Assembly (NCBI RefSeq): GCF_018327705.1
Contig: NZ_BNEM01000002.1
Coordinates: 2,232,001-2,296,000 of the forward strand
Direction of reading: 5' to 3'
Length of the DNA: 64,000 nt
Source of the DNA: Catellatospora sp. TT07R-123
GTDB lineage: Bacteria > Actinomycetota > Actinomycetes > Mycobacteriales > Micromonosporaceae
Shown: positions 30,448 to 54,015 of the stretch, in pieces
Position numbering within the stretch: the stretch's first letter is position 1
Layout: each line of letters starts with the position of its first letter
The notes under the pieces: generated by a model
The model's input: the letters and a program-made list of their open reading frames with translations, nothing else
Databases searched by the model: none
What the model was told of the DNA's origin: nothing
Made by a program: the position numbers and the translations under genes

Positions 30448-30835
30448 GTGGACGGCCCCCTTCCTGTCGAGGACACCGGAGGCTAAACCACCGCGGTGAC
30501 ACTTCCCCCGGCCGCGGGTGTACATCCGGTGCGACCTGCGGCGCCGCAACTGGTTCGGTCGGGCGCTTGCTGCGGTTAGCACCAGGACGCGGCAGAATCG
30601 GACGTAAGATCTGATCAGGCGTACGACGCGCAGGAGCACCGCGAGGCGTGGGCTGCCGCCCGCCGCCGAGCTCGCCGGAAAGAGGGCGACGATGCTGAAG
30701 CAGCCGGACGAGGCCGCGGCCTCCCGCACCACGACCAGCGCGCGGGCCGGCGAGTCCGCGCCCGTCTCGCGGCGTCCCGCCGCCCGAGCGTCGGCGGAGT
30801 ACCGTCGGAGCCCGAGGCGGAAGAAGGGGTCGCGC
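30448..30835. promoter_or_regulatory. 388-bp divergent intergenic region (MoxR cluster 1 / patatin gene)
   Basis: No gene with convincing coding character. It must hold the promoter of the five-gene minus-strand operon and that of the patatin-like gene. A GC-rich near-palindrome CCGCGG...CCGCGG occurs at about 30490-30520, but no confident -10/-35 pair was identified. Confidence 0.5.
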
Positions 30836-31973: not shown

Positions 31974-34900
31974 TCACCCCGCCGGAACCGGCTCCGGCCC
32001 CGCGGCGGGTGGCGCGGCCGGTGGCTCGGCGGCGGCCGACTCCGTGCGCGGCCGGCCGAACCGCAGGTACAGCACCGGGACGATGAGCAGGTTGAGCAGC
32101 GTCGAGGTCAGCAGGCCGCCGATGATGACGACCGCCATCGGGTGCTCGATCTCGTGTCCGGGCACGTCGCCGAGGACCACCAGCGGCACCAGTGCCAGGC
32201 CGGTCGCCAGCGTGGTCATCAGGATCGGCGACAGCCGGTCCAGCGAGCCCCGCAGCACCAGGTCCTTGCCGAAGGGCCGGCCCTCGAACCGTTCCAGGTG
32301 CTGGTAGTGGCTGATCAGCAGGATGCCGTTGCGGGCGGCGATGCCGAGCACGGTGAGCAGGCCCACCAGCGAGCCGAGCGAGATGGTGCGGTCACTGAAG
32401 AAGTACGCCGCGAGCACGCCGCCGACCAGTGCCGACGGCAGGGTCAGGAACGACATGACCGCCAGCCGCCAGCTCTCGAACGACAGCCGCAGCAGGATCA
32501 GGATCAGCAGCGCCGCCCCGAGGCCGAACCACAGGATGCGCTGGGCCGCGGCCTGGCGCTCGGCGTACTCGCCGAGCAGTTCGGCGTGGTAGCCGCGGTC
32601 GAACTGCACGTTGCCGATTTTGGTGTCTAGGTCCTGGACGACCGCGCCGAGGTCGCGGCCCTCGACGTTGGCACCGACGTCGATGTAGCGCTGGGTGCCG
32701 TCGTGCAGGATCACGTTGGGCGTGGACTTGACCTCGACCTTGGCCACGTCGCCGAGGCGCACGTGCCCGCCGTTCGGGGTGTCGATCGGCAGGTTCTCGA
32801 TGTCGGCGACGGAGTCGCGGGTGGCGGGCGTGCTCCATACCACGATGTCGTAGGCCTTGCCGTCGCGGAAGATGTCGCCGACCTCCTCGCCGGCCATCAG
32901 CGTCGCCGAGGCGCGCCGTACGTCGCCCGGTTTGACACCGAACTTCTCGGCCTTGGCCAGGTCGACGGTGACCTCGACCTGCGGCACGTCCACCTCCAGG
33001 TCGACGTGCCGGTCGACGGTGCCCGGGGTGTCGGCCATCAGCTGCTGGATCTGCTCGGCCTTGGCCCGCAGCTGGTCCAGGTCCTCGCCGTAGATGCGCA
33101 CCACGATGGCGTCGCCGGAGCCGGTCAGCACCTCGTCGGTGCGTTCCCGCAGGTACGTGTACACGTTGTGCATCAGGCCGGGGTAGTTCTTGCCGACGGC
33201 CTCGATCTTGGCGATGGTCTCGTCGTAGTCGGCGGACGGGTCGATGCTGATCCACAGCTCGCCGAAGTTGACGCCCGCCGTCTCGTCGCCCAGGTACGCC
33301 ATGCCGATGTGCGCGCCGAACGTCTGCACGCCGGGCACCTGGCGCAGCTCCTTGGAGACGTTCTGGATCATCCGGATCTCCTCGTCGTTGGACGATCCGG
33401 GCGCGGTGATGAAGTGCATGAAGACGTTGCGCTCCTTGAACGCCGGCAGCAGCGACTGGCCCAGGCCGGGCAGCGCGGCCAGGCCGAACAGCAGCACCAC
33501 GCCGGTGGCCGCGAACGCGACGAACGGCTTGCGGATGATCCGGTCGAGCACCCGGCCGTAGGCGGGCTTGAGCCAGCGCACGACCGGCGACTCCCGGCGG
33601 TCCAGCGGGGCACGCGAGAGCAGCAGCAGGGCCAGGGCCGGCGTCACGGTCAGCGCCACCACCAGCGAGGCGAGCACCGCCAGGGTGTACGACAGCGCCA
33701 GCGGCCGGAAGAACGCCCCGGTGAGCCCGCCCAGGAAGAAGATCGGCACCGCCGCCGCGACGATGATCATCGTGGCGTACACGATCGGGCTCCGCACCTC
33801 CAGGGACGCGTCCAGGATGATCGACGCGGTGGAGCGGTCCGAGCCCTCGGCCCGCGCCTGGCGCAGCCGTCTCATGATGTTCTCGATGTCGATGATCGCG
33901 TCGTCGACGACCACGCCGACGGCGATCACCAACCCGGCTAAGACCATGGTGTTGATCGTGGCGCCGCGATAGTAGAGCACCAGGCCCGCGGCCACGATGG
34001 ACAGCGGGATCGCGACCAGGCTGATCAGCGCGGTACGCCACTCGAACAGGAACAGCGCCAGCACCAGCACCACGAACAGGCAGCCCAGCAGCAGCGCGCG
34101 GGAGAGGTTGTCCACCGCCGTCTCGATGAACGAGGCGGGCCGGAAGATGGCCGGGTCGACCTTGATGCCGGTCAGGCCCGGCTCCAGCGTCTTGAGCGCC
34201 TGCTCGACACCCTTGGTGACGTCGATGGTGTTGGCCCAGGGCAGCTTCTCCACGATCAGCATCACGCCGGGCTGACCCTGGATCACCGCGTCACCGATCA
34301 GCGGCTGGTGGCCCTCGACCACGTCGGCCACCTCGCCCAGGCGCAGCGGCGCCTGCCCGTCGCGGGACACGGTCACCTTGGCCAGGTCGGCCGCGGTGCG
34401 GATGGGCAGCACGTGCCGTACGCCGATGGTCTGGTTGGGGGTGTTGACCTGGCCGTCGGTGCCGATCACCGCGCCGTTGGAGAACTGGAGCAGCCCCACC
34501 TCCAGCGCGTCGGCGGTCTCGGTCATCACCTGGTCCAGCGAGACGCTGTGCGCCTGCATCCGCTTCGGGTCGACCTGCACCTGGAGCATCTGGAGCTGCT
34601 CGCCCCAGATCGCCACGTTCGCGACGCCAGGCACCTCCAGCAGCTTCGCCCGGATCGTCCAGTACGAGATCATCGACATCTCGATGATGGACCGGCTGTC
34701 CGAGGTGAGCCCGATCTTCATGACCCGGCCCATGGACGACACGGGCTGGAGCATGACCGGCGGCGCCGCCCAGGTCGGCAGCGTCGGGGTCACCGAGACC
34801 ATCCGCTCCGACACGAGCTGGCGGGCGGTGAACAGGTCGGTGCCCGGCTTGAACAGCAGCTCGATCGAGGACAGCTGCGCCAGCGACTTGGACCGCATCG

Positions 34901-35141
34901 TCTCCAGGCCCTCGACGCCGTTGAGCGCGTTCTCCATCGGCACCGTGACCAGCGACTCGACCTCACCCGCCGACAGGCCCAGGCACGCGGTCTGGATCTC
35001 CACGCGGGGCGGGGCGAACTCGGGGAACACGTCGACCGGCATCTTGCGCAGCTGGACGAAGCCCAGCGCCATCATGCCGGCGGCCAGCGCCACCACCAGG
35101 ATGCGGAACTTCAGGCTCGTCGCGACGATCCAGCGCATCAT
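31974..35141 (-). CDS. RND-family efflux pump subunit, HME/CzcA-CusA type
   Basis: The 1055-residue protein has the RND topology: TM1 at 12-30, a large loop with porter domains, TM2-6 at about 335-540, a second loop, and TM7-12 at about 855-1030. The N terminus (KMPVDVFPEFAPPRVEIQT) is characteristic of the heavy-metal (CusA/CzcA) branch. In TM4 the relay region reads GVVVDDAIIDIENI, retaining the Asp and Glu used for proton coupling, although the residue six before the Asp is Ala, not Asp. It is the third gene of an operon with the mini adaptor and a second RND subunit. In a monoderm cell it exports across one membrane. Substrate unknown. Confidence 0.85.
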   Translation of the reverse strand: MMRWIVATSLKFRILVVALAAGMMALGFVQLRKMPVDVFPEFAPPRVEIQTACLGLSAGEVESLVTVPMENALNGVEGLETMRSKSLAQLSSIELLFKPGTDLFTARQLVSERMVSVTPTLPTWAAPPVMLQPVSSMGRVMKIGLTSDSRSIIEMSMISYWTIRAKLLEVPGVANVAIWGEQLQMLQVQVDPKRMQAHSVSLDQVMTETADALEVGLLQFSNGAVIGTDGQVNTPNQTIGVRHVLPIRTAADLAKVTVSRDGQAPLRLGEVADVVEGHQPLIGDAVIQGQPGVMLIVEKLPWANTIDVTKGVEQALKTLEPGLTGIKVDPAIFRPASFIETAVDNLSRALLLGCLFVVLVLALFLFEWRTALISLVAIPLSIVAAGLVLYYRGATINTMVLAGLVIAVGVVVDDAIIDIENIMRRLRQARAEGSDRSTASIILDASLEVRSPIVYATMIIVAAAVPIFFLGGLTGAFFRPLALSYTLAVLASLVVALTVTPALALLLLSRAPLDRRESPVVRWLKPAYGRVLDRIIRKPFVAFAATGVVLLFGLAALPGLGQSLLPAFKERNVFMHFITAPGSSNDEEIRMIQNVSKELRQVPGVQTFGAHIGMAYLGDETAGVNFGELWISIDPSADYDETIAKIEAVGKNYPGLMHNVYTYLRERTDEVLTGSGDAIVVRIYGEDLDQLRAKAEQIQQLMADTPGTVDRHVDLEVDVPQVEVTVDLAKAEKFGVKPGDVRRASATLMAGEEVGDIFRDGKAYDIVVWSTPATRDSVADIENLPIDTPNGGHVRLGDVAKVEVKSTPNVILHDGTQRYIDVGANVEGRDLGAVVQDLDTKIGNVQFDRGYHAELLGEYAERQAAAQRILWFGLGAALLILILLRLSFESWRLAVMSFLTLPSALVGGVLAAYFFSDRTISLGSLVGLLTVLGIAARNGILLISHYQHLERFEGRPFGKDLVLRGSLDRLSPILMTTLATGLALVPLVVLGDVPGHEIEHPMAVVIIGGLLTSTLLNLLIVPVLYLRFGRPRTESAAAEPPAAPPAAGPEPVPAG

Positions 35142-35163
35142 GACCGGTCACCCCTCCCCGCCG

Positions 35164-35640
35164 TCACTCTTCCTCGACCCCGACCTCGGTGCCGTAGAGC
35201 TCGTCGACGCCCTGCACCACCACCTGGGTGCCGGCCTTCGGCCCCGCCGACAGCACGACGGTGTCGCCCGCGACGGTCTCCACGGTCACGGGCTGGCGCA
35301 GGTACACCCGGTCGCCGACGACGGCGTAGGCCCAGGTCGCGCCGGTCGGGTCGTAGAAGAGCGCCTTATACGGGATGGTGAGCTTCTGCTTGCTGCCGTA
35401 TTTGGCCATGGCCACCGGGGCGGTGACGATGCCCAGGTGCTCGACCGCGTCCGGCTGGAGCGTCACCCGGCTCAGGTCGGTGCCCTCGACCGGCTCGGCC
35501 ACCCCGGACGTGTCGTTCTGGGTGTCGACGATGTCCGACAGCGGCGGGTACGAGCTGCCCAGCATCGCCGCCAGCCCCACGCCGACGGCCACCGCCACCA
35601 GGGCGCCCAGGCCCCACTTGAGCCACCTGTTGCCCGACAT
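35164..35640 (-). CDS. Minimal membrane-fusion (adaptor) protein for the RND pumps
   Basis: The 158-residue protein has one N-terminal membrane anchor (about 8-27, WGLGALVAVAVGVGLAAM) and an extracytoplasmic part whose two segments (VTLQPDAVEHLGIVTAPVAM and the PYKALFYDPTGATWAYAVVGDRVYLRQPV region) match the C-terminal beta-barrel and membrane-proximal domains of CusB/HlyD-type adaptors. The barrel-sandwich and helical hairpin that normally reach the outer membrane are missing, which fits an organism without one. It is sandwiched between the two RND genes with gaps of 4 and 22 bases. Confidence 0.75.
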   Translation of the reverse strand: MSGNRWLKWGLGALVAVAVGVGLAAMLGSSYPPLSDIVDTQNDTSGVAEPVEGTDLSRVTLQPDAVEHLGIVTAPVAMAKYGSKQKLTIPYKALFYDPTGATWAYAVVGDRVYLRQPVTVETVAGDTVVLSAGPKAGTQVVVQGVDELYGTEVGVEEE

Positions 35641-35644
35641 GGCG

Positions 35645-38600
35645 TCACGCTCCTTCTGCGGCCGACGGTGCGGTCCCGGCCGGGCCGGCCGCCGGGTGCT
35701 GCCCGCGTGCGGGGTCGAAGTACCCGTAGAGCACGGGCAGCAGGTACAGGATCAGCAGCACGGCGGTGACCAGGCCGCCCAGCGCGGTGACCGCCAGCGG
35801 GCGCAGGATCTCCAGGCCCGCCACGTTGCCCAGGGCCAGCATCGGCACCAGCGCCGCCGCCACGGCCAGCGCCGTGGTGACGATCGGCGCGAACCGGTCG
35901 CCGACGCCGTACGACGGCTGCGCGCCCGCCGCGGCGGCCTGCTGCTGCCAGCCGCGGACGAGCAGCACGCCCTCGCGCACGGCCAGCGCCAGCGGCACCC
36001 CGAGGCCCAGCAGCGAGCCGATCGAGACGCCGACGCCGGTCAGCAGCGCCAGCAGCACCCCGCCGAACAGGGACGCGGGCAGCAGCAGGATCAGCAGCGT
36101 AGCCAGCCGCCAGCTGCCGAACGCCGCCTGGAGCAGCAGGTAGGCCGCGATCGCCGCGACCGCGAGCAGCGCCAGCAGGCGCCAGTGCGCGGGGCCCGCG
36201 GTGGTGTAGTCGCCCAGCACCTCGGCGTGGTATTCGACCGGGAACTGGACGTTCTTCAGCTCGCCCTGGATGTCGCGGGCGACCATGTCGACCGGGCGGC
36301 CGGTCACGTCGACGGGGATGTCGACGCGGCGGGACACGGAGTCGTGGCGGATGTCCGCCGGCGCCGACACGAGCCGTACGTTCGCCACGTCGGACAGCTT
36401 CACGTGCTCGCCGGTCGGGGTGTCGATGAGCAGGTTGCCGACGGCGGCGACGCTGCTGCGCACCGACGGCACGCCCAGCACGACCACGTCGAAGACCTTC
36501 TGCTCCTCGAACAGGCTGCCCGCGGTCAGGCCGGAGACCAGCACGGCGGCGCTGCGCCGGACGTCGCCGGGCTTGATGCCGTACTTCTCCGCCCGCGCCA
36601 GGTCGACCTCGACCTCGATGGTGGCCTGGTCCTTGCCCAGGTCCACCGGCCGGGCCGTGACCCCGTCGACCTGGTCGAGGATCCCGCGCACCTCCTGCGC
36701 CTTGGCCCGCAGCGTGTCCAGGTCCTTGCCGTAGATCCGCACCACCAGGTCGCCCTTGGTGCCGGTCAGCGCCTCGTTGACCTGCTGCGCCGGATACGTG
36801 ATCACGTGGTGGTCGAACCCCGGGTACTGGCTCACCACGTCCTGGATGCGGTCGGTGGTGGCGGTGTAGTCCGCCTTCGGGTCGATGGTCAGCCAGAACT
36901 CGCCGGAGTTCATGCCGACGGCCTGGTCGGAGTTGACGGCCCGGCCCACGTGCACGCCGACGTTGGACACGCCCTCGGTGGCCCGCAGCCGCTCGCTGAC
37001 CTGCCCGGCGACCCGGACCATCTCCTGCTGGGACATGCTGGGCACCCCGGTCCAGCGGACCAGCAGGTTGCGGTCCTGCGGCACCGGCAGCAGCGCCTGG
37101 CCGCCCAGCAGCGGCGCGAGCAGCGGCCCGGCCAGGGCCAGCACCAGCGCGGTGGCCAGGGCCAGCTTCGGGTGGCGGCTGCCGCGCAGCGACAGGCCCT
37201 CGTAGCGGCGCCGCAGCCAGCCCAGCGCGGGCGACTGCGCGGGCAGGTCCGCCCTGCGGTACAGCAGCCAGGTCAGCACCGGGGTGAGCGTCAGCGACAG
37301 CAGCAGCGAGGCCAGCACCGCCAGCCCGCACGACCACGCCATCGGGCCGGTGAAGGCGCCGGTGAGGCCGCCGATGAACAGCAGCGGGGCGAGCCCGGCG
37401 AGCAGGATCAGGGTGGCGTACAGCAGCGGCACGCGGGTGCGCAGCACCACGTCGGCGAACGACTGCTCGGTGACCGGTTCGCCCTCGCGGCGCGCCAGCC
37501 CCCGTCTGGCGTTGTCCGTCTCCGTGACCACGTCGTGCACCACCACCGTCAGGGCGAACATCAGCCCCGCCAGCACCAGCATGTTGACCCCGCCGCCGCG
37601 CAGGTCGAGCACGAGCACCGCCAGCAGCAGCGACAGCGGGATGACGATCAGCGCGATCAGGGCGGCGCGCCAGTCCAGCAGCAGCGCCCCGATCACGATC
37701 ACCGCGAGCAGGATGCTCAGCAGTACGGCGGTGCGCAGGTTGCCCAGCGCCGACTCGATGAAGCTGGCCGGGCGGTAGAGGGTGGTGTCGACCTGGACTC
37801 CGGCCATACCCGGCTCCAGGGACTTCAGCGCGTCCTCGACGCCCTTGGTGACCTCCAGCGTGTTGGCGCCGGGGAACTTCTCCACCACCAGCATCAGGCC
37901 GGGCTTGTCGCCGACCAGGGCGTCGCCGATCAGCGGGAGCTGGTGGTCCTCGGTCACGGTGGCCACGTCGCCCAGCCGCATGATCCGCTCGCCGTTGCGC
38001 ACCGGCGCCTGGGCGGTCTGGTCCTCACCCGTGGCGCGGGGCTGCTCCAGCGGCACCTTGGCCAGTTCGGCGGCGGTGTGGATGGGCAGGATGTGCTGGA
38101 TGCTCAGCCGCTGGTTGGGCGTCTCGACGAAGCCGCTGGTGCCGGGGGTGGACGCCTCGACGAAGGTCAGCGGGGACACCCACAGCGCGTTGCCGGTGGT
38201 CTCGACGACCTGGGTAAGCGTGACGCCCGCGGCGGCCAGCTTCTCGGGGTCGACCTGGACCTGCAACTGCCGGTCGCGCTCGCCCCAGATGGACACGTTG
38301 GCCACCCCGGGCACGCCCATCAGCTTGGGTTTGACCTGCCAGTGCGCGAGCAGGGACATGTCGATGAGCGACACGTCCGGCGAGGACAGGCCGACGACCA
38401 TGACCCGGCTGGTGGAGGAGACGGGCTGGATCATGTTGGGGGCCTTGGACACGTGCGGCAGCGCGACCGCCTGGGTGAGCCGCTCCTGCACCGCCTGGCG
38501 GGCCCGCAGCACGTCGGTGCCGGGTTCGAACACCAGGTCCACCTGCGACAGGCCACTCATCGACTGCGACCGGATCGACTCCAGCCACGGCACGCCGTTG

Positions 38601-38821
38601 AGCAGGTCCTGTTCCAACGGGACGGTGATGAACTGCTCCACCTCGGTGGCCGACAGTCCCAGCGCCTCGGTCTGGATCTCGACGGTCGGCGGCGAGAACT
38701 CGGGCAGCACATCGGATGCGGACTTGTTCAGCCTGGTGAAGCCGAAGAACATCAGCAGTGCCGCCACCGGTATGACCAGCAGGCGGAACTTCAGACTCGA
38801 CCGGATGATCCAGCGCATCAT
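35645..38821 (-). CDS. RND-family pump subunit, degenerate relay
   Basis: The 1058-residue protein is a paralogue of the downstream RND subunit, with the same start MMRWIIRSSLKFRLLV, a matching SASDVLPEFSPPTVEIQT and full RND topology. In TM4 the region reads TVVVHDVVTETDN, so the first relay Asp is His and the Glu is shifted or replaced. The TM11-12 region also looks less conserved. It may be an inactive or differently coupled partner in a heteromeric pump, as in MdtBC. Start ATG at 38821 (ATGATG). It leads the three-gene operon. Confidence 0.82.
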   Translation of the reverse strand: MMRWIIRSSLKFRLLVIPVAALLMFFGFTRLNKSASDVLPEFSPPTVEIQTEALGLSATEVEQFITVPLEQDLLNGVPWLESIRSQSMSGLSQVDLVFEPGTDVLRARQAVQERLTQAVALPHVSKAPNMIQPVSSTSRVMVVGLSSPDVSLIDMSLLAHWQVKPKLMGVPGVANVSIWGERDRQLQVQVDPEKLAAAGVTLTQVVETTGNALWVSPLTFVEASTPGTSGFVETPNQRLSIQHILPIHTAAELAKVPLEQPRATGEDQTAQAPVRNGERIMRLGDVATVTEDHQLPLIGDALVGDKPGLMLVVEKFPGANTLEVTKGVEDALKSLEPGMAGVQVDTTLYRPASFIESALGNLRTAVLLSILLAVIVIGALLLDWRAALIALIVIPLSLLLAVLVLDLRGGGVNMLVLAGLMFALTVVVHDVVTETDNARRGLARREGEPVTEQSFADVVLRTRVPLLYATLILLAGLAPLLFIGGLTGAFTGPMAWSCGLAVLASLLLSLTLTPVLTWLLYRRADLPAQSPALGWLRRRYEGLSLRGSRHPKLALATALVLALAGPLLAPLLGGQALLPVPQDRNLLVRWTGVPSMSQQEMVRVAGQVSERLRATEGVSNVGVHVGRAVNSDQAVGMNSGEFWLTIDPKADYTATTDRIQDVVSQYPGFDHHVITYPAQQVNEALTGTKGDLVVRIYGKDLDTLRAKAQEVRGILDQVDGVTARPVDLGKDQATIEVEVDLARAEKYGIKPGDVRRSAAVLVSGLTAGSLFEEQKVFDVVVLGVPSVRSSVAAVGNLLIDTPTGEHVKLSDVANVRLVSAPADIRHDSVSRRVDIPVDVTGRPVDMVARDIQGELKNVQFPVEYHAEVLGDYTTAGPAHWRLLALLAVAAIAAYLLLQAAFGSWRLATLLILLLPASLFGGVLLALLTGVGVSIGSLLGLGVPLALAVREGVLLVRGWQQQAAAAGAQPSYGVGDRFAPIVTTALAVAAALVPMLALGNVAGLEILRPLAVTALGGLVTAVLLILYLLPVLYGYFDPARGQHPAAGPAGTAPSAAEGA

Positions 38822-38923: not shown

Positions 38924-39088
38924 TCCTCCGCCCGTCAACGCTACGCCCGCGACCCGCTCCAACTGGGAGTTTTCTGGCAGTTAGGGCCAAATCAGAGAGG
39001 TACCTGTGAGCAGGCTGGACGGTCCGGTGCCGGGCCTCGCGCACGGTGGGGCGGCGGGTTGTCGGCGGGGTCGGGTAGTGTCCCGCGC

Positions 39089-39170
39089 GGCGAGGTCGTA
39101 GCGCAGAGGTCGTCGCGCCTTGACTGCAAGCTGGAGGACGTCGGTTCGAATCCGACCGGCCTCGCCCCCA
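39089..39170 (+). tRNA. tRNA-like sequence (tRNA-Cys-like, GCA), non-canonical
   Basis: A perfect T arm (GTCGG-TTCGAAT-CCGAC, 39140-39156), a D arm (GCGC pair at 39101-39104 and 39115-39118 with GG in the loop), an acceptor pair GGCGAGG/CCTCGCC extendable to 10 bp (39089-39098 with 39157-39166, one G-T) and an encoded CCA (39168-39170) all point to a tRNA. The anticodon region TGCAAG (39125-39130) would give GCA for Cys. However, the anticodon stem does not pair normally, and three extra bases lie between the T arm and the usual acceptor strand. It may be a pseudo-tRNA, a remodelled minor tRNA or a relic. It lies 67 bases before the second MoxR operon. Confidence 0.45.
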
Positions 39171-39237: not shown

Positions 39238-40635
39238 ATGCCGCCGAGCAGCACGCGGATGCCGTCCGCGCGCGCGGCCGGACCGGCGGTGTCCGCCTCT
39301 GATGTGGACGCCTGCCTGCGGGTGCTGGACGCCCTGCGGGGCGGGACGCTCGCCGAGGCGGACGCGGCGGCGGTCGGCCGCGCGGTCGGCGCCGCCTACC
39401 GCGACGGGCGCCGGGAGCGGCGGGCGGCCCGCACGGCGCAGCGCCGCGAGCAGGACCTGGAGCTGCTTGCCGCCGCGCGCCGGTTCCGGGAGGAGATCCC
39501 GGCGCTGACGGCCGCGTCCCCGGCCGCGGCCGCCGACGAGCAGCCCCGGCTGCACAAGCCCCGCCGCTGCTACGTGTGCAAGACGCACTACCGGCTGGTC
39601 GACGCCGACTACCACCTGATGTGCCCGGACTGCGCGCACGACAACCGGCTGCGCCGCGACGCCCGCTGCGACCTGACCGGGCGGCGGGCCGTGGTCACCG
39701 GCGGGCGCGTCAAGATCGGGTTCCACGTCGCGCTGAAGCTGCTGCGCGACGGGGCGGACGTGCTGGTGACGACCCGTTTTCCGTACGATGCCGCCCGCCG
39801 CTTCGCGGCCGTGCCCGACGCCGCCGACTGGCGCGACCGGCTGCACGTGCACGGGGTGGACTTCCTGGACCTGCCCGGCGTGCTCGACCTGGTCGACGCG
39901 GTCAACCGGCGCTGGGACCACCTCGACATCCTGGTCAACAACGCCGCGCAGACGCTGCACCGCCCGGCCGCCTACCACCGCGAGGTGCGGGCGGCCGAGC
40001 TGACGCCGCTGTCGGGCGCCGCCGCCGCGATCGAGGCGGTGCCCGCGCGGGCCCCCGGCGGCGCCGCGACCGCCGCGCACCTGCCCGCGCTGGTGCAGTC
40101 GCTGTTCCCGGCCGGAGCGGTCGACGAGACCGGCGAGCCGCTGGACCTGCGCGAGGTCAACAGCTGGGTGCTGCGCGACCGGGACGTGACCCCGCAGGAG
40201 TGGCTGGAGGTGCACGTGGTGAACGCGTTCGCGCCGTTCCTGCTCACCTCGCGCCTGCGGCCGCTGCTGGCCGCCGCCCCGCACCCGCTGCGGCACGTGG
40301 TGCAGGTGTCGGCGATGGAGGGCAGCTTCTCCCGCGAGTTCAAGACCGAGCGGCACCCGCACACCAACATGGCCAAGGCGTCCATGAACATGATCACCCG
40401 CACCCTGGCCGCCGACTACCGCGGCGACGGCATCCTGATGAACAGCGTGGACACCGGCTGGGTCACCGACGAGCGGCCGCACCCGGCCAAGCAGGCGCAG
40501 CGCCAGGCCGGGTTCCGCCCGCCGCTGGACGTCGTCGACGGCGCCGCCCGGGTGTACGACCCGATCGTGCGCGAGCAGCACGGCGACCCCGTGCACGGCC
40601 AGTTCCTCAAGGACTACCGGCCGGTGCCGTGGTGA
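39238..40635 (+). CDS. Zinc-ribbon/short-chain-dehydrogenase protein heading MoxR operon 2
   Basis: The 465-residue protein starts at ATG 39238 after GGGAGGG. Residues 20-100 are helical and charged; a zinc ribbon follows at C111-x2-C114...C129-x2-C132; then comes an SDR Rossmann domain from about 148. The cofactor loop is GGRVKIG (155-161), a variant of TGxxxGIG, and NNAAQT at 234-239 is present. The active-site region reads HTNMAKASMNM, placing Thr where the catalytic Tyr is expected before Lys. An insertion (about 245-320) separates the halves. It may bind NAD(P) as a sensor. The next gene overlaps in a GTGA. Confidence 0.75.
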   Translation: MPPSSTRMPSARAAGPAVSASDVDACLRVLDALRGGTLAEADAAAVGRAVGAAYRDGRRERRAARTAQRREQDLELLAAARRFREEIPALTAASPAAAADEQPRLHKPRRCYVCKTHYRLVDADYHLMCPDCAHDNRLRRDARCDLTGRRAVVTGGRVKIGFHVALKLLRDGADVLVTTRFPYDAARRFAAVPDAADWRDRLHVHGVDFLDLPGVLDLVDAVNRRWDHLDILVNNAAQTLHRPAAYHREVRAAELTPLSGAAAAIEAVPARAPGGAATAAHLPALVQSLFPAGAVDETGEPLDLREVNSWVLRDRDVTPQEWLEVHVVNAFAPFLLTSRLRPLLAAAPHPLRHVVQVSAMEGSFSREFKTERHPHTNMAKASMNMITRTLAADYRGDGILMNSVDTGWVTDERPHPAKQAQRQAGFRPPLDVVDGAARVYDPIVREQHGDPVHGQFLKDYRPVPW

Positions 40636-41780
40636 GCGCGCCGACCCCGCCCGCCGGCCCGGTCCCGGTGCGCTGCCCCGCCATCACCCACCCGGAGCTG
40701 GGCCTGGCCGACCCCGGCGACTTCGACGCGCTGCTGGCCCGCCTGGCCGACCCGGCCGCGGTCGCCGCGTCCGAGGACTTCCCACGCGGCACGCTGCAAC
40801 CCGACGGGCGGCTCGACCTGTGCAAACAGGGCCTCGGGCCGTACGCGGCACAGCGCGTGGTGCCGGCGGCGGTCGCGTTCGGGCACGCCACCCACCTGCT
40901 GCTGGGCACCAACGGGCTGGGCAGCGAGGGCGCCCGCGTGGTCGCCGACGCGCTCACCGACGGCCACCGGGTGCAGACCGTCTACCTCGGCTGCAACCGC
41001 ATCGACGCCGACGGCGCCGGAGCGCTGGCCGACCGGCTGGCCGCCGACCGCACCGTGCGGGCGCTGTGGCTCAAGCGCAACCCGATCGGCGACGCGGGCC
41101 TGGCCCGGCTGTGCACCGCCCTGGCCGGCAACACCGCGCTGCGCACCCTCGACCTGGTCAACACCGGGTTGACCGCGACCGGGCTGGGCGAGCTGGCCCG
41201 CACCCTGGCCGGGCGGGCGGCGCCGCTGGAGCGGCTGTTCCTGGGCGGCAACGGCCTGGGCCCCGAGGCCGTCGCGGCGCTGGCCTCGATCGTCCACGAC
41301 GGCCGCGTCCGCGAGCTCTACCTGGCCGCCAACGCCCTCGGCGACACCGGCGCCGCCGCGCTGGCCGAGGCCGTCGAAGGGCTGCCGATGACGCTGGGCC
41401 TGGGCGGCAACGGCCTCACCCCGGCCGGGGTGGCCGCACTGGCCGCCCGGCTGGGCGCCTGGCACGCCCTGGACCTGGCCCGGCCGCCGTCGGAGCGGGC
41501 GCTGGGCGCCACCGCCAACACCGTCGGCGACGACGGGGCCGCCGCGCTGGCCGCGGTCCTGCCCGCCAGCGCGCTGCGGCGGCTGGACCTGCGCTTCACC
41601 GCCATCACCGGCCGGGGCGCGAAGGTGCTGGTCGCGGCCCTGAACGACGACATGCCCCTGCGCTACCTCGGCCTCAACGGCGGCGTGCCCCGGCGGCTGC
41701 GGCGGCTGTCGACGGCCGTGCTCGGCCCCGCCGAGGCCCCGCACCCCGACATCAGCGCGATCGCGAGCGTCTACCGATGA
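40632..41780 (+). CDS. RNI-type leucine-rich-repeat protein (MoxR operon 2)
   Basis: The 382-residue protein from GTG 40632 has about seven ribonuclease-inhibitor/RanGAP-type LRRs between residues 95 and 340, for example LYLGCNRIDADGAGALADRL, LWLKRNPIGDAGLARL, LFLGGNGLGPEAVAAL and LYLAANALGDTGAAAL. No signal peptide, so cytoplasmic. LRRs of this kind bind other proteins. The start overlaps the stop of the SDR gene (GTGA) and its own stop overlaps the next start (ATGA), so stoichiometric translation with its neighbours is expected. Role inferred: adaptor or recognition subunit. Confidence 0.85.
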   Translation: MSAPTPPAGPVPVRCPAITHPELGLADPGDFDALLARLADPAAVAASEDFPRGTLQPDGRLDLCKQGLGPYAAQRVVPAAVAFGHATHLLLGTNGLGSEGARVVADALTDGHRVQTVYLGCNRIDADGAGALADRLAADRTVRALWLKRNPIGDAGLARLCTALAGNTALRTLDLVNTGLTATGLGELARTLAGRAAPLERLFLGGNGLGPEAVAALASIVHDGRVRELYLAANALGDTGAAALAEAVEGLPMTLGLGGNGLTPAGVAALAARLGAWHALDLARPPSERALGATANTVGDDGAAALAAVLPASALRRLDLRFTAITGRGAKVLVAALNDDMPLRYLGLNGGVPRRLRRLSTAVLGPAEAPHPDISAIASVYR

Positions 41781-43444
41781 GCGACCCCGACCAGGCCCAC
41801 CAGAACGACCTGCCCACCTGGCGCCGCGTGCGGCGGTATGCCGTACCGGCGCAGATGGTCGCGCGGGCCACGGCCCGGCGGCTGGCCGGCGACTGGCGCG
41901 GCGCCTGCGCCGCCGCCAACGTCGACGTGCGGTTCGACGAGGCGGAACTCGTCGGCACCTACGGTGCCGAGGCGGCCGCGCGGCTGGCCGGCGAGCTGGC
42001 CGGGTTCGCCCCCGACCTGCTGCGCTGGCACCTGCCCCGGGCCCTGGGCGGCCGCGCCAGCCTGTCCACCGGCGACGTGTTCGCGCTCGCCCCGAAGGCC
42101 GACACGGTCCCCGAGGAGCTGCCCCGGCTGGTGGTCGTGCTGCCGAAGACCGTCGACGGCTCGCAGCGGCTGCGCCTGGAGGTGCGCACCACCGCCCGCG
42201 AGGAGCTGCCCGGTCACCTGTGGGACGCCCGGCAGGCGCACGGGCTGCGCGCGGCCTGGGGCGGCGCGGAGCGGATGCCGTTCCTCGCCCCCGACGGCAC
42301 CCCGCTGGCCGCCGCCGAGCTGGGTGCCGGCGACACCGCACCGGCCCGCGCCGAGCGCGCGGCCGCGCTGCTGGCGGCGGGCGACGTCGTCGCGGCCTGG
42401 CGGGTGGCCGGGATCGAGCTGGACCCGGCCGAGGCCAAGGGCCGCTGGGGCACCGCGATGACCGTCCAGGGCCTGCCCGCGCTGAACCTGGTCGGCCTGC
42501 CCGCGCAGGCCCGCGCGCTGGCGGCGCGGCGCGGCGTGACCGCGGTCCGGGTCAGCTTCGGCTGGCGCACCCGCATCGAGCTGGACCTGAGCGGGCCCGA
42601 CGACGGCGGCCCGATCGGCGCGCGGCTGAGCAGCGACCGGGACACCCCGGCGGCGGACCTGGCCGAGCCGGTCCACCGGCTGCCGGTCGACCTGGAGCTG
42701 CTGCGGCACGGCCTGATCACCGTCGCCGAGCTGCACCCGCTGATCCGCGCCGCGCTGGCGCCGGACGCGGTGACGCCCGAGCACCGCGACGAGCCCGAGG
42801 TGCCGGAGTTCGCCCCGGTCGCGGTGCGCTGCCGGGGCGCGTGGCACCGGGTGCACAACGACGCGGGCCTGCTGCGCGTGCTCGACCACACGCCCGAGGA
42901 GGTGCTGCGCGAGCGGATGATGCACGGCCTCGGCGGCAGGACCGCGGGCTGCTTCGCCGCCGAGCAGTCCTGGCACGACGGCAGGGGCCGGCTGCCCAGA
43001 CTCCTGCGCGCCCAGCGCGACGACCTCATGCAGCGGGTGCTGCACGGCGACACCGACGGCCTGCTCGCGCTGCTGGACCGGGGCATGGACCCGCGCATCC
43101 GCGACGGGCGCGGCTTCACGCTGCTGCACCACCTGCGCTGCCTGGACCACGAGCGGCTGCTGCCCCGGCTGCTGGCCGCCGGGCTGCACGTCGACGAGCG
43201 CGACCACCGGGGCCGTACGCCGCTGCACGTGGCGGTCGGCTGGGTCGGCACGGCCGCGCTGGTGAAGGCGCTGCTGGACGCGGGCGCCGACCCGAGGGCC
43301 GACGACGAGAGCGGGGTGTCGCCGACGCTGCTGCTGGAGTACAAGGGCGGCGACTACTTCGACTCCGAGGACGAGGACTGGTTCGACGGCCAGGCCGACC
43401 TGCGCCTGGTGAAGCGATACCTGGACGAGGCGGGGGAACAGTGA
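41777..43444 (+). CDS. Ankyrin-repeat protein (MoxR operon 2)
   Basis: The 555-residue protein starts at ATG 41777 inside the LRR stop (ATGA). Its N-terminal 400 residues form an unrecognised alpha/beta region (ARATARRLAGDWRGACAAAN near 30, a C-terminal part with RCRGAWHRV near 350). Residues about 420-525 hold three to four ankyrin repeats: GDTDGLLALLDRGMDPRIRD, GFTLLHHLRCLDHERLLPRL, RGRTPLHVAVGWVGTAALV and ALLDAGADPRADD. The acidic tail (YFDSEDEDWFDG) is notable. Cytoplasmic. It probably recognises a partner protein for the ATPase. Confidence 0.83.
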   Translation: MSDPDQAHQNDLPTWRRVRRYAVPAQMVARATARRLAGDWRGACAAANVDVRFDEAELVGTYGAEAAARLAGELAGFAPDLLRWHLPRALGGRASLSTGDVFALAPKADTVPEELPRLVVVLPKTVDGSQRLRLEVRTTAREELPGHLWDARQAHGLRAAWGGAERMPFLAPDGTPLAAAELGAGDTAPARAERAAALLAAGDVVAAWRVAGIELDPAEAKGRWGTAMTVQGLPALNLVGLPAQARALAARRGVTAVRVSFGWRTRIELDLSGPDDGGPIGARLSSDRDTPAADLAEPVHRLPVDLELLRHGLITVAELHPLIRAALAPDAVTPEHRDEPEVPEFAPVAVRCRGAWHRVHNDAGLLRVLDHTPEEVLRERMMHGLGGRTAGCFAAEQSWHDGRGRLPRLLRAQRDDLMQRVLHGDTDGLLALLDRGMDPRIRDGRGFTLLHHLRCLDHERLLPRLLAAGLHVDERDHRGRTPLHVAVGWVGTAALVKALLDAGADPRADDESGVSPTLLLEYKGGDYFDSEDEDWFDGQADLRLVKRYLDEAGEQ

Positions 43445-44625
43445 CGAGGGTGGAGGATCCGCTGCTGGCGGCCGACGAGCTGATCGGCCGCACCCGGGCG
43501 TGGCGCAGCGAGCCGGTGACCGACCCGCGTGCGCAGGCGCTGGCGCTGGCGGTGTCGGCGAACCTGCCGGTGCTGCTGTGGGGCGAGCCGGGCATCGGCA
43601 AGTCGGCGACGTTGCAGCAGCTCGCGGCCGGGCTGGGGGTGCCGCTGGAGACGGTGATCGCCAGCGTGCACGAGCCTTCGGACTTCGCCGGGCTGCCGAT
43701 CGTGGGCGACAACCCCGCCGTGGACGGGGTGCCGATGGCGCCGCCGGACTGGGCGGTGCGGCTGGCCCGTACCGGGCGGGGGCTGCTGTTCTTCGACGAG
43801 CTGTCGTCGGCGCCCCCGGCGGTGCAGGCGGCGCTGCTGCGGGTGGTGCTGGAGCGGCGCGTCGGCAGCCTGGAGCTGCCCGCCTCGATCCGGATCGTGG
43901 CGGCGGCCAACCCGCCCGCCAGCGCCGCCGACGGCTGGCACCTGAGCCCGCCGCTGGCCAACCGGTTCGTGCACCTGCACTGGACGCACGACCCGGCGGC
44001 GGTGGCCCGGGGCCTGGCCGGGACCTGGCCGTCGATCACGGTCCCCGCGGTGGTCCCGTCGCGTACGGCCGGTGCCGTGGCCAAGGCCCGCGGCACCATC
44101 GCCGGTTTCCTCACCGCCCGGCCCGGCCTGGTGCACCACCTGCCCACCGACGCCGACAGCCGGGGCGGGGCGTGGCCGTCGCCGCGCAGCTGGGAGATGG
44201 CGCTGCGGCTGCTGGCGTTCCACCTGTGCACCGACACCAGCCGCGACGCGCTGGCCACGGCCGTGATCGGGGCGGTGGGCGACGGGCCGGGCCTGGAGTT
44301 CACCACGTACCTCCAGGAGCTGGACCTGCCCGACCCGGAGCGGGTGCTGGCCGACCCGGAGGCGTTCGCGCTGCCCGAGCGCGGCGACCGGCAGCTGGCG
44401 TTCCTGGCCGCGGTGGTCGCGGCGGTGCAGGCCCGGGTGACCCGGCCGCGCTGGGAGGCGGGCTGGGTGGTGCTGGCCAAGGCCGTCGAGGCGGGCGTGC
44501 CGGACGTGGCCGCGCGGGCGGCGCTGGACCTGGCGGCGCTGCGCGACACCGACTGGCCGGTGCCCGCGTCGATCGACGCGTTCGTCGAGGTGCTGAGCCT
44601 GTCCGGAATGCTCGCCGGCCGATGA
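43441..44625 (+). CDS. MoxR-family AAA+ ATPase (operon 2)
   Basis: The 394-residue ATPase has a perfect Walker A GEPGIGKS (48-55), Walker B LLFFDE (D119, E120), sensor 1 AAANPP (N157) and an arginine-finger region LANRFVHL (R175). The lid region continues to about 330. The GTG start overlaps the ankyrin stop (GTGA) and the stop overlaps the VWA start (ATGA). MoxR ATPases act as ring chaperones on VWA partners; the gene next door encodes one. Differences from the cluster 1 MoxR (Walker A TAKS, EE Walker B) show it is a separate lineage. Confidence 0.92.
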   Translation: MTRVEDPLLAADELIGRTRAWRSEPVTDPRAQALALAVSANLPVLLWGEPGIGKSATLQQLAAGLGVPLETVIASVHEPSDFAGLPIVGDNPAVDGVPMAPPDWAVRLARTGRGLLFFDELSSAPPAVQAALLRVVLERRVGSLELPASIRIVAAANPPASAADGWHLSPPLANRFVHLHWTHDPAAVARGLAGTWPSITVPAVVPSRTAGAVAKARGTIAGFLTARPGLVHHLPTDADSRGGAWPSPRSWEMALRLLAFHLCTDTSRDALATAVIGAVGDGPGLEFTTYLQELDLPDPERVLADPEAFALPERGDRQLAFLAAVVAAVQARVTRPRWEAGWVVLAKAVEAGVPDVAARAALDLAALRDTDWPVPASIDAFVEVLSLSGMLAGR

Positions 44626-45848
44626 CCGCCGGGGCACCGGACGGCACCGGGCGCTCGGACGGTTCCGCGCGGCTGGACCGCACCCGGCTGCTGGCGGCGC
44701 GGCTGCGCGCCGCCCAGGACCGGCCCTACCTGGGCACCGCGCTGTACAGCCTGACCGTGGTCGCCAGCGAGCAGGTGCCGACGATGGGCGTGGACCGGTA
44801 CTGGCGCTGCTACGTCAATCCCGACTTCGTCGCGCGGACGCCGGTCGAGCAGCTGGCGGCGGTGTGGATCCACGAGGTGGCGCACCTGCTGCGCGACCAC
44901 CACGGCCGGGCCGACCGGCTGCCCGTCGCCGACCGGCACGACCACCACCGGCTCAACGTGGCACAGGACTGCGAGATCAACGACGACCTGATCGCCGACG
45001 GGCTGCCGCTGCCGGAGAACCGAGTCGACCCGAAGGGGCTGGGCCTGCCGACGGGGCAGCTGTTCGAGCAGTACCTGCCGTCGCTGCCGCGTACGCGGCT
45101 GGTGCTGGTGCAGTGCGGGTCGGGCGCGCACGGGATCTCGATGCCGTGGGAGCTGGACGGCCAGGTGGGCGTGTCGGGCGTGGAGGCTGACGCGATCCGG
45201 CGGCAGACCGCGCAGGCGATGCGCTCGCACCAGCGCTCGCGCGGCAGGCTGCCGGGCGGCTGGCAGCGCTGGGCGGAGCAGGTCCTGGAGCCGACCGTCG
45301 ACTGGCGGCAGGCGCTGACCGGCGCGGTGCGCGAGGCGGCGGCCTGGGCGAGCGGGGCGGTGGACTACACGTACCAGCGGCCGTCGCGGCGCGGGGCGGC
45401 GCTGCGCGGCGTGGTGCTGCCGAGCCTGCGCGCCCCGCTGCCGCGCGTGGCGATCGTGGTGGACACGTCCGGTTCGATGTCGCCGGACGACCTGGCGGCG
45501 GTGATGGGCGAGATCGCGGGCGTGCTGCGCGCGGTCGGCGTACGAGGCAACCGGGTCACCGTGCTGGCCTGCGACGCCGACGTGCACGCGACCCGCAAGG
45601 TGTCCACGCTCGGCGAGGTGGTGCTGGCCGGCGGCGGCGGCACGGACATGCGCGTGGGCATCGGCGCGGCGCTGGCGGTGCCGCAGCCGCCGCACATCGT
45701 CATCGTGCTCACCGACGGCTACACGCCGTGGCCGGAGGCCGCGCTGAGCCGGACGAGGATCATCGCGGGCCTGGTCGGCACGGAGCCGCCGACGCCTCCG
45801 CCGTGGATCGAGTCGGTTCTCATCACGACCAACTCTGCCAAAACGTGA
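44622..45848 (+). CDS. HExxH-VWA protein, partner of MoxR (operon 2)
   Basis: The 408-residue protein has an N-terminal metallopeptidase-like domain with H84-E85-x-x-H88 (HEVAHLLRDHH) and an acidic cluster QDCEINDD (115-122) that could give the third ligand, then a VWA domain from about 275 with MIDAS D281-T-S-G-S, T341 and D365. This combination is known in the VWA-like metallopeptidase group (DUF2201). It starts at ATG 44622 inside the MoxR stop. Predicted role: effector protease or metal-binding partner whose activity is gated by MoxR. No substrate is known. Confidence 0.88.
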   Translation: MTAGAPDGTGRSDGSARLDRTRLLAARLRAAQDRPYLGTALYSLTVVASEQVPTMGVDRYWRCYVNPDFVARTPVEQLAAVWIHEVAHLLRDHHGRADRLPVADRHDHHRLNVAQDCEINDDLIADGLPLPENRVDPKGLGLPTGQLFEQYLPSLPRTRLVLVQCGSGAHGISMPWELDGQVGVSGVEADAIRRQTAQAMRSHQRSRGRLPGGWQRWAEQVLEPTVDWRQALTGAVREAAAWASGAVDYTYQRPSRRGAALRGVVLPSLRAPLPRVAIVVDTSGSMSPDDLAAVMGEIAGVLRAVGVRGNRVTVLACDADVHATRKVSTLGEVVLAGGGGTDMRVGIGAALAVPQPPHIVIVLTDGYTPWPEAALSRTRIIAGLVGTEPPTPPPWIESVLITTNSAKT

Positions 45849-53920: not shown

Positions 53921-54015
53921 GCGCCGCTCCTATCCGAACAGGACACGTGGTACAGCAAACAGCCGCGACCCGGCAACCGGAAGCCCCGAACGGTGGAGGC
54001 GGGCCGCCTGTCGGC

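Follow-up and report, generated by a model that had tools for sequence, protein, structure and literature searches.

A tRNA-like RNA at the head of a five-gene MoxR–VWA operon in Catellatospora

Results

Organization of the operon

The window analysed here is a 64,000-nucleotide stretch of the genome of Catellatospora sp. TT07R-123 (contig NZ_BNEM01000002.1, positions 2,232,001 to 2,296,000), numbered from its first letter. Positions 39238–45848 hold five forward-strand open frames with four overlaps of exactly 4 bases each, and 69 nt separate a tRNA-like RNA element from the start of the first of these, the SDR gene (Table 1). All 11 Catellatospora genomes examined (this genome included) carry these five genes in identical order, and the operon is therefore not a chance arrangement. 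A scan for promoters and terminators found none, and no integrase was recognized by Pfam among the five operon genes and the three that follow. An initial annotation of this DNA had described five coupled genes, which the open frames and Pfam matches confirm, and Walker A Lys54, HExxH Glu85 and MIDAS Asp281 all lie where it placed them. Its gene content is right for the five proteins but incomplete, in that the RNA gene was left out and some 415 N-terminal residues of the third protein are unlike any Pfam family. The presence of the RNA changes how the operon is to be read.

Table 1. Features of the operon and its upstream RNA (window coordinates).
Feature	Position	Strand	Evidence
tRNA-like RNA, operon head	39087..39168	+	ARAGORN 'tRNA-???' 39091-39167; Rfam tRNA 40 bits at 39092-39164; model R1 93.4 bits
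Zinc-ribbon SDR-like protein, 465 aa	39238..40635	+	Pfam adh_short/adh_short_C2, E ~1e-16
Cys4 zinc ribbon of SDR protein (C111, C114, C129, C132; residues 111-132)	39568..39633	+	
LRR protein, ribonuclease-inhibitor type, 382 aa	40632..41780	+	Pfam LRR_6 E 2.5e-19
Third-component (ANK) protein, 555 aa, with ankyrin repeats behind a conserved central domain; no Pfam match in the N-terminal regions	41777..43444	+	
ANK protein central domain CxGxWH...DH...ALGG...C, residues 346-415	42812..43021	+	profile matches L154, L155, L156
Ankyrin repeats of third-component protein, residues 416-520	43022..43336	+	Pfam matches within 417-513, best E 5.3e-9
MoxR-type AAA+ ATPase, 394 aa; Walker A GEPGIGKS, Walker B FFDEL, Arg175	43441..44625	+	Pfam AAA_5 E 2.2e-8
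DUF2201/VWA protein, 408 aa; zincin-like domain (HEVAH) at the N terminus, VWA with MIDAS at the C terminus	44622..45848	+	Pfam DUF2201_N 6.8e-31, DUF2201 2.5e-17
HExxH motif of DUF2201/VWA protein, residues 84-88	44871..44885	+	
MIDAS DTSGS of DUF2201/VWA protein, residues 281-285, with T341 and D365	45462..45476	+	

The MoxR–VWA pair and its third component

MoxR–VWA machines are widespread, and a client is known for few of them. In the operon the MoxR AAA+ and vWA genes are adjacent, and the DUF2201 protein beside MoxR carries a zincin-like domain in front of its vWA domain, the arrangement by which metallopeptidase-vWA pairs are recognized. The ATPase and MIDAS motifs are intact, in keeping with the proposed coupling of such a pair to repeat proteins; the MIDAS is retained in 26/26 aligned homologues, one of which reads DTSES. 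The vWA match ends at residue 399 of 408, with no effector domain C-terminal to it. From its motif the HExxH domain is a putative metallopeptidase, and its Glu is retained in 25 of the 26 aligned homologues; four distant relatives (L063, L154, L155 and L156) have HHxxH, in which the Glu is lost and the histidines are kept. This loss weakens the suggestion that the operon encodes a protease whose targets are chosen by the repeat proteins.

The MoxR protein scores 19.4 bits against bpMoxR, for which the cut-off is 27. At the cut-offs used, the only solved structures matched are midasin (by MoxR), a magnesium-chelatase VWA subunit and ankyrins. Relatives of the VWA protein occur in 235 of 50,697 phage records, the best among the matches listed being ~28% identical.

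The ankyrin-type (ANK) protein shows the lowest conservation among the five (56–58% identity in four congeners, compared with 88–90% for MoxR in three), and is also found in extra copies. No Pfam family matches its first ~415 residues, and the 27 family members searched gave ankyrin models and single weak matches only; its central domain is shared with genes beside MoxR–DUF2201 in distant members of the phylum (L154, L155 and L156). A suspected internal repeat of the two N-terminal regions found no support (BLAST E 9.1; hhalign probability 5.5%, E 0.007, 34 columns). Structure predictions for the ANK and VWA proteins, made for the window and the congener L067, had mean pLDDT values of 48.6 and 36.3 and were unusable; in the ANK model the ankyrin part is fair and the remainder of low confidence.

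The SDR-like and LRR proteins

The SDR-like protein has the cofactor motif TGGRVKIG, and Thr376 (TNMAK) occupies the position of the catalytic Tyr. This position of the YxxxK motif is Thr in all 79 relatives examined, with Lys retained in every one, and a classical, cofactor-using SDR enzyme is at best weakly supported. All four Cys of the zinc ribbon are present in 78/79 relatives, the remaining row being gapped; the ribbon matches DZR_2 at E 0.0011, under the Pfam cut-off.

Among 80 loci of SDR relatives searched with profiles, all five genes occur only in the congener L067, the LRR gene occurs at three others, and one (L097) has a divergent AAA–DUF2201 pair; disregarding shadow frames antisense to the SDR gene, no other neighbouring family exceeds 9/80 loci. 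The window LRR family is matched in 2/296 phylum genomes, both times within operons of the window type, and the protein is 83–84% identical between congeners.

We assessed 23 operons of the window type, found through the VWA gene, omitting L042 (at a contig end) and counting L067 and L049 once as the same contig. None of the 23 separates the ANK-type protein from MoxR and VWA, and these three are also found elsewhere without SDR, LRR or RNA, whereas SDR is present in 17/23 and LRR in 22/23; SDR is missing from the other six and from a paralogous class of stretches (class B). The expectation that the genes would be linked elsewhere thus holds for ANK, MoxR and VWA and fails for SDR, whose relatives are mostly unlinked, and because of this difference the operon is better described as two modules than as the one machine first proposed.

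The tRNA-like RNA

The window RNA folds with a 7-bp acceptor that leader and trailer extend to ~10 bp, a T stem of 5 bp and a normal D arm. Its anticodon arm is non-canonical (TTG-ACTG-CAA is a possible pairing): 2/5 stem pairs form and position 33 is C, as against the 5-bp stem, 7-nt loop and U33 of canonical elongator tRNAs, which several other linked RNAs do have. The anticodon arm is degenerate in this branch of the family, and all five stem pairs are present in 12/24 aligned RNAs. An 8-bp 'selenocysteine-like' acceptor was dropped because the stem runs to ~10 bp, and quadruplet decoding (ARAGORN 'gcaa') is an artefact of the absent anticodon stem.

Covariation in the family is 0.385 compared with 0.164 after shuffling, a control that leaves relatedness in. 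Each of three acceptor-extension pairs is formed in 19/24 RNAs, with two-sided changes, and the extension is complete in 31/47 linked and 5/39 unlinked tRNA calls. Searched with model R1, the genome itself yields the window RNA at the top (93.4 bits), two further copies at 89.7 and 80.8 bits, and nothing else above 58.5 bits, so that the family stands apart from the host tRNAs. The calls on linked RNAs cover many tRNA types. With a full anticodon stem in half of the aligned RNAs, and 16/47 linked calls lacking the full extension, some family members could be working tRNAs.

Linkage of the RNA to the operon

The RNA stands at the head of 21 of the 23 operons, L041 and L043 lacking it, and family members scoring at least 81 bits are found in 0/17 class B stretches, in which the core module is present without RNA. 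By genome, the RNA is detected at E<=1e-12 in 22/81 relatives, 21 of these being among the 23 with an operon-type VWA gene (a VWA match of at least 57% identity, or the 63% partial match in G079). A match to SDR, LRR or ANK lies at 10–151 bp in 28 of the 30 RNA copies fetched (from 64 matches). When the phylum sample is added, 30/37 adjoin an SDR, LRR or ankyrin-type gene; the exceptions are C2:481723 in the genome itself, L190, L198, L201 and, in G259, L200, L217 and L222 (three of that genome's four copies). The RNA was taken to occupy positions 1501–1582 of each locus, which is untrue for L201, where the copy is at the contig start and the SDR, LRR and ANK families are matched nowhere on the locus. 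Since the RNA model was built from linked RNAs, this evidence is partly circular; outside the training operons and their orthologues, 9/11 copies have such a gene adjacent. The counts of assessable operons, of those headed by the RNA, of SDR and LRR presence, of relatives having both the RNA and an operon-type VWA gene, of genomes with the VWA gene, of training or orthologous places and of 30/37 adjoining copies were made by hand.

Among 57 distinct linked tRNA calls, 56 are on the strand of the adjacent gene; 39 lie 5' of the nearest gene, mostly at no more than 151 bp, and 17 lie 3' of it, some of them 5' of the next gene, all on the same strand. Several form tandem arrays of 2–4. tRNA-type genes also adjoin some SDR genes in Bacteroidota, Campylobacterota, Armatimonadota and Deinococcota; no tRNA is called near 67/79 SDR relatives, and the tRNA-linked SDRs cluster on the tree (4 label changes against 22.3 when shuffled). 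In single cases, RtcB-family genes lie near an Aquimarina SDR that is followed by three tRNA calls, an independent AAA + DUF2201 pair adjoins another SDR with tRNA-like RNAs, and a Deinococcus plasmid carries a tRNA call, SDR and LRR remnant together. In viral contigs three scans gave no match, the queries being one exact RNA pattern, ANK and SDR.

Discussion

Comparison with described systems

Wider RNA-repair systems were reportedly described by Burroughs and Aravind in 2016. The rsr-yrlBA-rtcBA cluster is an RNA-repair operon (PMC7790460) and Y RNA has been described as tRNA-like (PMC7824862); the window likewise places a tRNA-related non-coding RNA beside protein genes, a likeness of arrangement. 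RtcB-family genes near one relative of the window SDR provide a further link, but the operon differs from RNA-repair systems in having no RtcB, the genome's sole copy being at C1:1535225. Allo-tRNAs, with 8/4 or 9/3 arrangements, and selC* tRNA-Cys, with an 8-bp acceptor (PMC7609411), share the long acceptor helix and varied anticodons, and both have a longer variable arm; the window RNA has a ~10-bp acceptor, and its T stem of 5 bp together with the shortness of its variable region led us to reject identity with either.

The gene set with its RNA was not found in the literature searched, coverage of the relevant papers being incomplete, in line with the initial annotation, which knew of no system with the five genes; MoxR with a metallopeptidase-VWA partner, however, has already been described. 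Jumbo phages carry a MoxR AAA+ gene beside that of a vWA protein whose N-terminal domain is a metallopeptidase, a pair proposed to act in virion assembly, and the available text mentions no third component, SDR, LRR or tRNA-like RNA (PMC7824862). In MoxR–vWA ternary conflict systems, which occur in actinobacteria among others, the couple is joined by a system-specific third protein such as VMAP, iSTAND, FtsH or a beta-propeller (PMC7159879) or iSTAND2 or TERNS3 (PMC8195603). The operon differs from these accounts in four respects: ankyrin repeats accompany unnamed regions in its third protein, a zincin-like domain precedes the vWA, no effector follows the vWA, and there is a tRNA-like RNA. By Pfam, none of the 27 ANK-family members is VMAP, iSTAND, FtsH or a beta-propeller; none matches iSTAND2 or TERNS3 either, domains that Pfam may not contain. 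NorQ/NorD, in which the MIDAS of the VWA partner is proposed to contact the client (PMC13036017, PMC9976466), and RavA/ViaA (PMC3893208) also combine a ring ATPase with a VWA protein, but as described they have respiratory-enzyme clients, no RNA and another VWA family.

Alternative explanations

A maturation chaperone is a possible, if rather unlikely, explanation: MoxR and the zincin-like VWA protein would act on one client, possibly the SDR-like protein, by inserting a metal or by remodelling it, with ankyrin and LRR proteins as client adaptors and the RNA a passenger. NorQD remodels its client and so allows iron insertion (PMC13036017, PMC9976466), the HHxxH relatives keep the motif histidines where Glu is lost, and conservation throughout the genus also fits. 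Absence of SDR from six operons and from class B, however, means that it is no obligate client, and linkage of the RNA is left unexplained. A conflict (anti-phage or abortive) system on the ternary pattern, in which the tRNA mimic would serve as bait for nucleases that cut tRNA, or as a sentinel for them, with the HExxH domain as effector, is unlikely. The logic of the pair is that of the published ternary systems (PMC7159879), and the variable, multicopy ANK protein, the many tRNA types called and the RtcB genes near one SDR relative would agree with it. The defence context once suggested for the operon nevertheless finds little support: neighbours are conserved in congeners and the three viral-contig scans gave no match; no PADLOC-DB 2.0 system model was matched (the five proteins gave ankyrin-repeat, partial AAA or weak matches only), Pfam found no toxin domain, and the LRR protein, at its level of identity between congeners, is not diversifying.

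tRNA genes are common integration sites, and the RNAs might be ordinary tRNA genes into which cassettes insert, the linkage then marking hot spots and not function. The Deinococcus plasmid and the RNAs with full anticodon stems could be read in this way, but the separation of the family from host tRNAs in bit score, the near-uniform strand, the retention of a covarying extra acceptor part and the lack of integrase among the eight genes scanned make it very unlikely. The element may alternatively act in cis, as a processing or regulatory mRNA leader for the adjacent gene; the short spacing in the window and the many RNAs closely 5' of a gene would suit a leader, whereas those 3' of their nearest gene and the tandem arrays would not, and we regard a purely cis role as improbable.

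Proposed role

The operon suggests a ribonucleoprotein system that is built on a tRNA mimic and would be remodelled by MoxR–VWA, and in which the RNA would be made and bound by operon proteins; whether the RNA is a working part of the system we judge evenly balanced. One module would comprise the RNA and its partner proteins (the zinc-ribbon SDR pseudoenzyme and the LRR protein), the other a ternary MoxR–VWA remodelling machine with the ankyrin protein as third component. The RNA would fold as a tRNA mimic whose over-long acceptor helix should impede its being matured and used as an ordinary tRNA, and it could be held by the SDR, LRR and/or ankyrin protein, which may recognize its binders or damagers. 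The VWA domain, with its MIDAS and the zinc-site domain in front, would grip the RNA-protein complex, which the MoxR ring would dismantle or switch by hydrolysing ATP; the outcome might be maintenance of tRNA or RNA integrity, or a response to RNA damage. The role may thus be RNA repair, damage sensing or regulation, and a role in RNA damage, taken alone, is somewhat improbable. We further speculate, at long reach, that tRNA mimics with an over-long acceptor, co-transcribed with a member of one of three unrelated protein families (zinc-ribbon SDR pseudoenzyme, LRR or ankyrin-type third component), are sentinels for tRNA damage or attack, wired in Micromonosporaceae to a MoxR–zincin–VWA machine that turns RNA state into remodelling or proteolysis; that this is a categorically new system is doubtful.

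A dedicated RNA at the operon head offers a direct handle on whether the machine acts on a ribonucleoprotein. If it does, AAA+ remodelling would be connected with tRNA mimicry, an SDR family of many phyla that lacks the catalytic Tyr (79 relatives examined) would gain a first role, and a DUF2201 ternary system would be defined whose unnamed third-component domain is found again in remote members of the phylum.

The operon and its conservation

The initial annotation described an operon of five genes, each overlapping the next by four bases, and this arrangement is confirmed at every junction, on the forward strand of a host genome of 9.17 Mb. The Pfam matches of the five products are SDR, LRR_6, ankyrin, AAA_5 and DUF2201_N/DUF2201. 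The operon is real and conserved, and it contains more than was seen at first, namely a tRNA-like RNA ahead of the SDR gene.

Among 26 aligned homologues the Walker A motif of the MoxR ATPase is conserved in 25 and falls in a gap of the remaining row; all 26 have the finger Arg and the Asp-Glu of Walker B. In the VWA protein the MIDAS motif is conserved in 26 of 26 aligned homologues—in one as DTSES—and the Glu of HExxH is found in 25 of 26. Four DUF2201 relatives (L063, L154, L155 and L156) have HHxxH in place of HExxH, with the flanking histidines retained. Of the five proteins the ankyrin protein (ANK) shows the lowest conservation, with 56–58% identity to four congeners, compared with 88–90% for MoxR in three, and its region 166–345 is just 42–45% identical between congeners. 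Additional ANK copies were found, and together with the low conservation these fit a part that meets variable partners.

Operon classes and a core module

The sample consisted of 36 stretches around DUF2201 homologues and 12 further stretches. Upstream DNA could be assessed for 23 operons built like that of the window (class A), comprising the window itself, L031–L041, L043–L052 and L147; by hand count, the ANK-type protein, MoxR and VWA are present in all 23, the LRR gene in 22 (missing in L043) and the SDR gene in 17 (missing in L034, L037, L039, L043, L052 and L147). In L041 the SDR and LRR genes are split from ANK, MoxR and VWA by about 7 kb of other genes. Class B operons, which are paralogous, have no SDR or LRR gene and encode MoxR, VWA and a protein matching ANK in its N-terminal and central part. 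One is located at a separate site in the same genome (L053, C1:1662000-1680000), with an ANK-type protein lacking the ankyrin repeats that the window copy has, and relatives provide nine more stretches (L054–L062). A further class B operon is carried by a mobilizable Streptomyces zaomyceticus plasmid (L160), the ANK-type and VWA proteins of which match other Streptomyces and Embleya plasmid records.

The VWA profile matches 14 of 296 sampled genomes of the phylum, seven of them from a single genus of the same class, another listed genome of which is negative; all seven have an ANK-type gene near the VWA gene on the same contig (six stretches were viewed gene by gene). Three genomes of other classes (L154, L155 and L156) have MoxR and DUF2201 followed by genes whose similarity to ANK is confined to its central domain, and three plasmid stretches of Rhodococcus or Mycobacterium (L159, L164 and L165) carry MoxR and DUF2201 but lack this domain. 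Given the distribution across class A, class B and L154–L156, the core consists of MoxR, the zincin-like VWA protein and a protein bearing the unnamed ANK central domain; the ankyrin, LRR and SDR parts seem to have been added to it. In the phages collection, a DUF2201/VWA relative occurs in 235 of 50,697 records, and in Pseudomonas phage sp. 30-3 and Thermus phage phiFa a MoxR-profile ATPase lies close by.

The window also contains a second MoxR operon, which additionally encodes a 1576-aa protein without a Pfam match and a DUF4132 protein. Genes related to those of this second operon adjoin the class A operon in eight of eight congener stretches (L044–L051) and a class B operon in L152. Between the two MoxR operons, at 31974-38821 on the reverse strand, are two large proteins of ~1055 aa, with a small gene between them, which presumably resemble RND-type efflux pumps; L031/L032 also have this pair next to their class A operon, and neither protein was seen in the remaining eight congener stretches. 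The protein encoded at 51051-53231 (reverse strand) has a long low-complexity stretch rich in Ala and Glu, and AT skew reaches 0.31 at 52001-54000.

Features of the second MoxR operon, and loci with tRNA calls flanking an SDR gene
Feature	Window position or loci	Strand	Context
Second MoxR operon	18015-30900	-	
DUF5682 joined to VWA_CoxE	20000-23680	-	Second MoxR operon
MoxR AAA_5	23688-24848	-	Second MoxR operon
tRNA-flanked SDR	L124, L130, L134, L135		Bacteroidota
tRNA-flanked SDR	L136		Campylobacterota
tRNA-flanked SDR	L082		Armatimonadota
tRNA-flanked SDR	L068, L097, L100, L109, L111		Actinomycetes

Structure of the tRNA-like RNA

ARAGORN reports a 'tRNA-???' at 39091-39167, and such a call lies directly upstream of the SDR gene in all 11 loci first checked, two of which are from other genera; at other loci, odd or ordinary-looking tRNA calls adjoin SDR, LRR or ANK genes. 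An alignment of the RNA family comprises 24 sequences and 84 columns, and its cloverleaf is supported by covariation: paired cells amount to 90.8%, compared with 78.6% in shuffled alignments, and the covariation score is 0.385, compared with 0.164 for shuffles—none of which equals it, relatedness not being removed by this control—and 0.064–0.122 for slid controls.

The acceptor helix has three pairs past the usual seven, each formed in 19 of the 24 sequences and with two-sided changes in 4, 3 and 4 sequences, respectively. Pairs 8–10 are complete in 31 of 47 distinct ARAGORN calls linked to an SDR, LRR or ANK gene and in 5 of 39 unlinked ones (Fisher p = 7 × 10−7, relatedness not removed), after 26 of 151 calls with no clear frame or near an end were left out. 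Of the five extended unlinked calls, four (L198, L200, L217 and L222) are themselves members of this RNA family. The anticodon arm is degenerate (2–3 of 5 pairs, C33) in 10 of 11 aligned RNAs directly preceding a class A SDR or LRR gene, the RNA of L040 being the sole one of these with a canonical arm; a TTG/CAA pairing is possible in seven RNAs with a degenerate arm. Five full anticodon-stem pairs are present in 12 of the 24 aligned RNAs.

Linkage of the RNA to the genes

R1, the covariance model of the RNA, has 27 matches of at least 81 bits across 52 loci. Of the 23 class A loci, 21 have matches at this level, the exceptions being L041 and L043, as do 0 of 17 class B stretches (L053–L062, L148–L153 and L160); in L157 another match adjoins the solo ANK gene. 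A search of the whole Catellatospora genome yields three matches (93.4, 89.7 and 80.8 bits) set apart from the next best at 58.5 bits, and these correspond to the window operon, a solo ANK paralogue and a site without a recognised partner. The last copy is at C2:481723-481804 (L221 1501-1582), with no SDR, LRR or ANK match adjoining.

R1 matches 22 of 81 related genomes at E≤1 × 10−12, and 21 of these 22 fall among the 23 with a class A-type VWA gene. In the 296-genome phylum sample, scores above 80 bits are restricted to the genome under study and G259, the one other LRR-bearing genome; a further genome, G238, has a single match of 73 bits, and those matches at 65–70 bits that ARAGORN can name are proline tRNAs. 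The search of relatives returned 64 matches, and in 28 of the 30 copies fetched from it an SDR, LRR or ANK match lies 10–151 bp away; for those of the 30 that are outside the training operons and their orthologues the proportion is 9 of 11. With seven further copies of at least 73 bits from the phylum search, the 28 of 30 become 30 of 37. The copies without a partner gene—three of the four in G259, the third of the Catellatospora genome, and that of G238—speak against reading the RNA as a part of the system. Among distinct linked calls, 56 of 57 are on the same strand as the gene, with 39 ahead of and 17 after the nearest gene.

Zinc-ribbon SDRs and adjacent tRNA calls in other phyla

Among the best 80 of 231 confirmed SDR loci in genome_contigs, profiles recover all five genes only in L067, from a congener, and an LRR gene adjoins the SDR gene in L082, L109 and L111. 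In 79 SDR sequences from these best 80 loci the classical catalytic Tyr position is Thr in every case, the Lys is retained in 79, and the Cys4 ribbon is present in 78, with one gap.

An ARAGORN call lies within 500 bp of the SDR gene in 12 of 79 SDR loci (L068–L146) and in none of the other 67. The call in L091 is an ordinary-looking leucine tRNA; R1 at E≤1 matches 10 of the remaining 11 loci, L136 being unmatched, and its scores for the distant-phylum calls are weak, at about 24–53 bits. In some SDR-flanking calls, such as two of the three in L134 and both of the framed ones in L124, the 10-bp acceptor is complete; in others it is incomplete. On a Deinococcus plasmid a tRNA-Ala call is situated 57 bp ahead of an SDR gene that is followed by an LRR remnant. 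In an SDR tree of 92 rows—a quick tree with long branches flagged and near-copies included—the 25 linked rows need 4 label changes, compared with 22.3 when shuffled.

Gene contexts at these loci are varied. L134 (Aquimarina) has an RtcB-family gene, a small gene, the SDR gene and then three tRNA calls, with a second RtcB-family gene ~3 kb downstream. In L135 (Flavobacterium) a DUF434/DUF5616 gene is upstream of the SDR gene with its tRNA calls, and a gene with the same start is downstream; both loci have a gene of ~220–230 aa ahead of the SDR gene. In L097 (Streptomyces sp. Tue6028) the interval between the SDR gene and a Trp-type tRNA-like RNA encodes an AAA ATPase and a DUF2201 protein that is divergent (27.2 bits against a cut-off of 23.2) and has HEARH and DTSGS; in L100 (S. 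stelliscabiei) the SDR gene and an RNA of this kind are directly adjacent. The 2016 RNA-repair survey of Burroughs and Aravind reportedly includes a new tRNA-like molecule with Band-7 proteins.

Relationship to known systems and a possible mechanism

Searches of open-licence full texts found no paper recognised as a description of the five-gene operon. Passages of earlier papers do describe a MoxR and metallopeptidase-vWA pair in jumbo phages (PMC7824862) and MoxR-vWA ternary conflict systems (PMC7159879, PMC8195603), and no word starting with ankyrin, leucine or SDR occurs in the main text of PMC7159879; non-canonical tRNAs are covered by a review (PMC7609411). According to passages of PMC13036017 and PMC9976466, NorQ remodels its VWA partner NorD, enabling iron insertion into a client that the MIDAS is proposed to contact. 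By the same logic, the MoxR-VWA pair here may have as its client a complex assembled around the tRNA mimic, whose long acceptor helix should hinder RNase P and normal tRNA use. The system may serve in RNA repair, in sensing of damage, in conflict or in cis regulation. The protein machine is a new variation on MoxR-VWA systems, and the surprising element is the tRNA-like RNA family attached to it.
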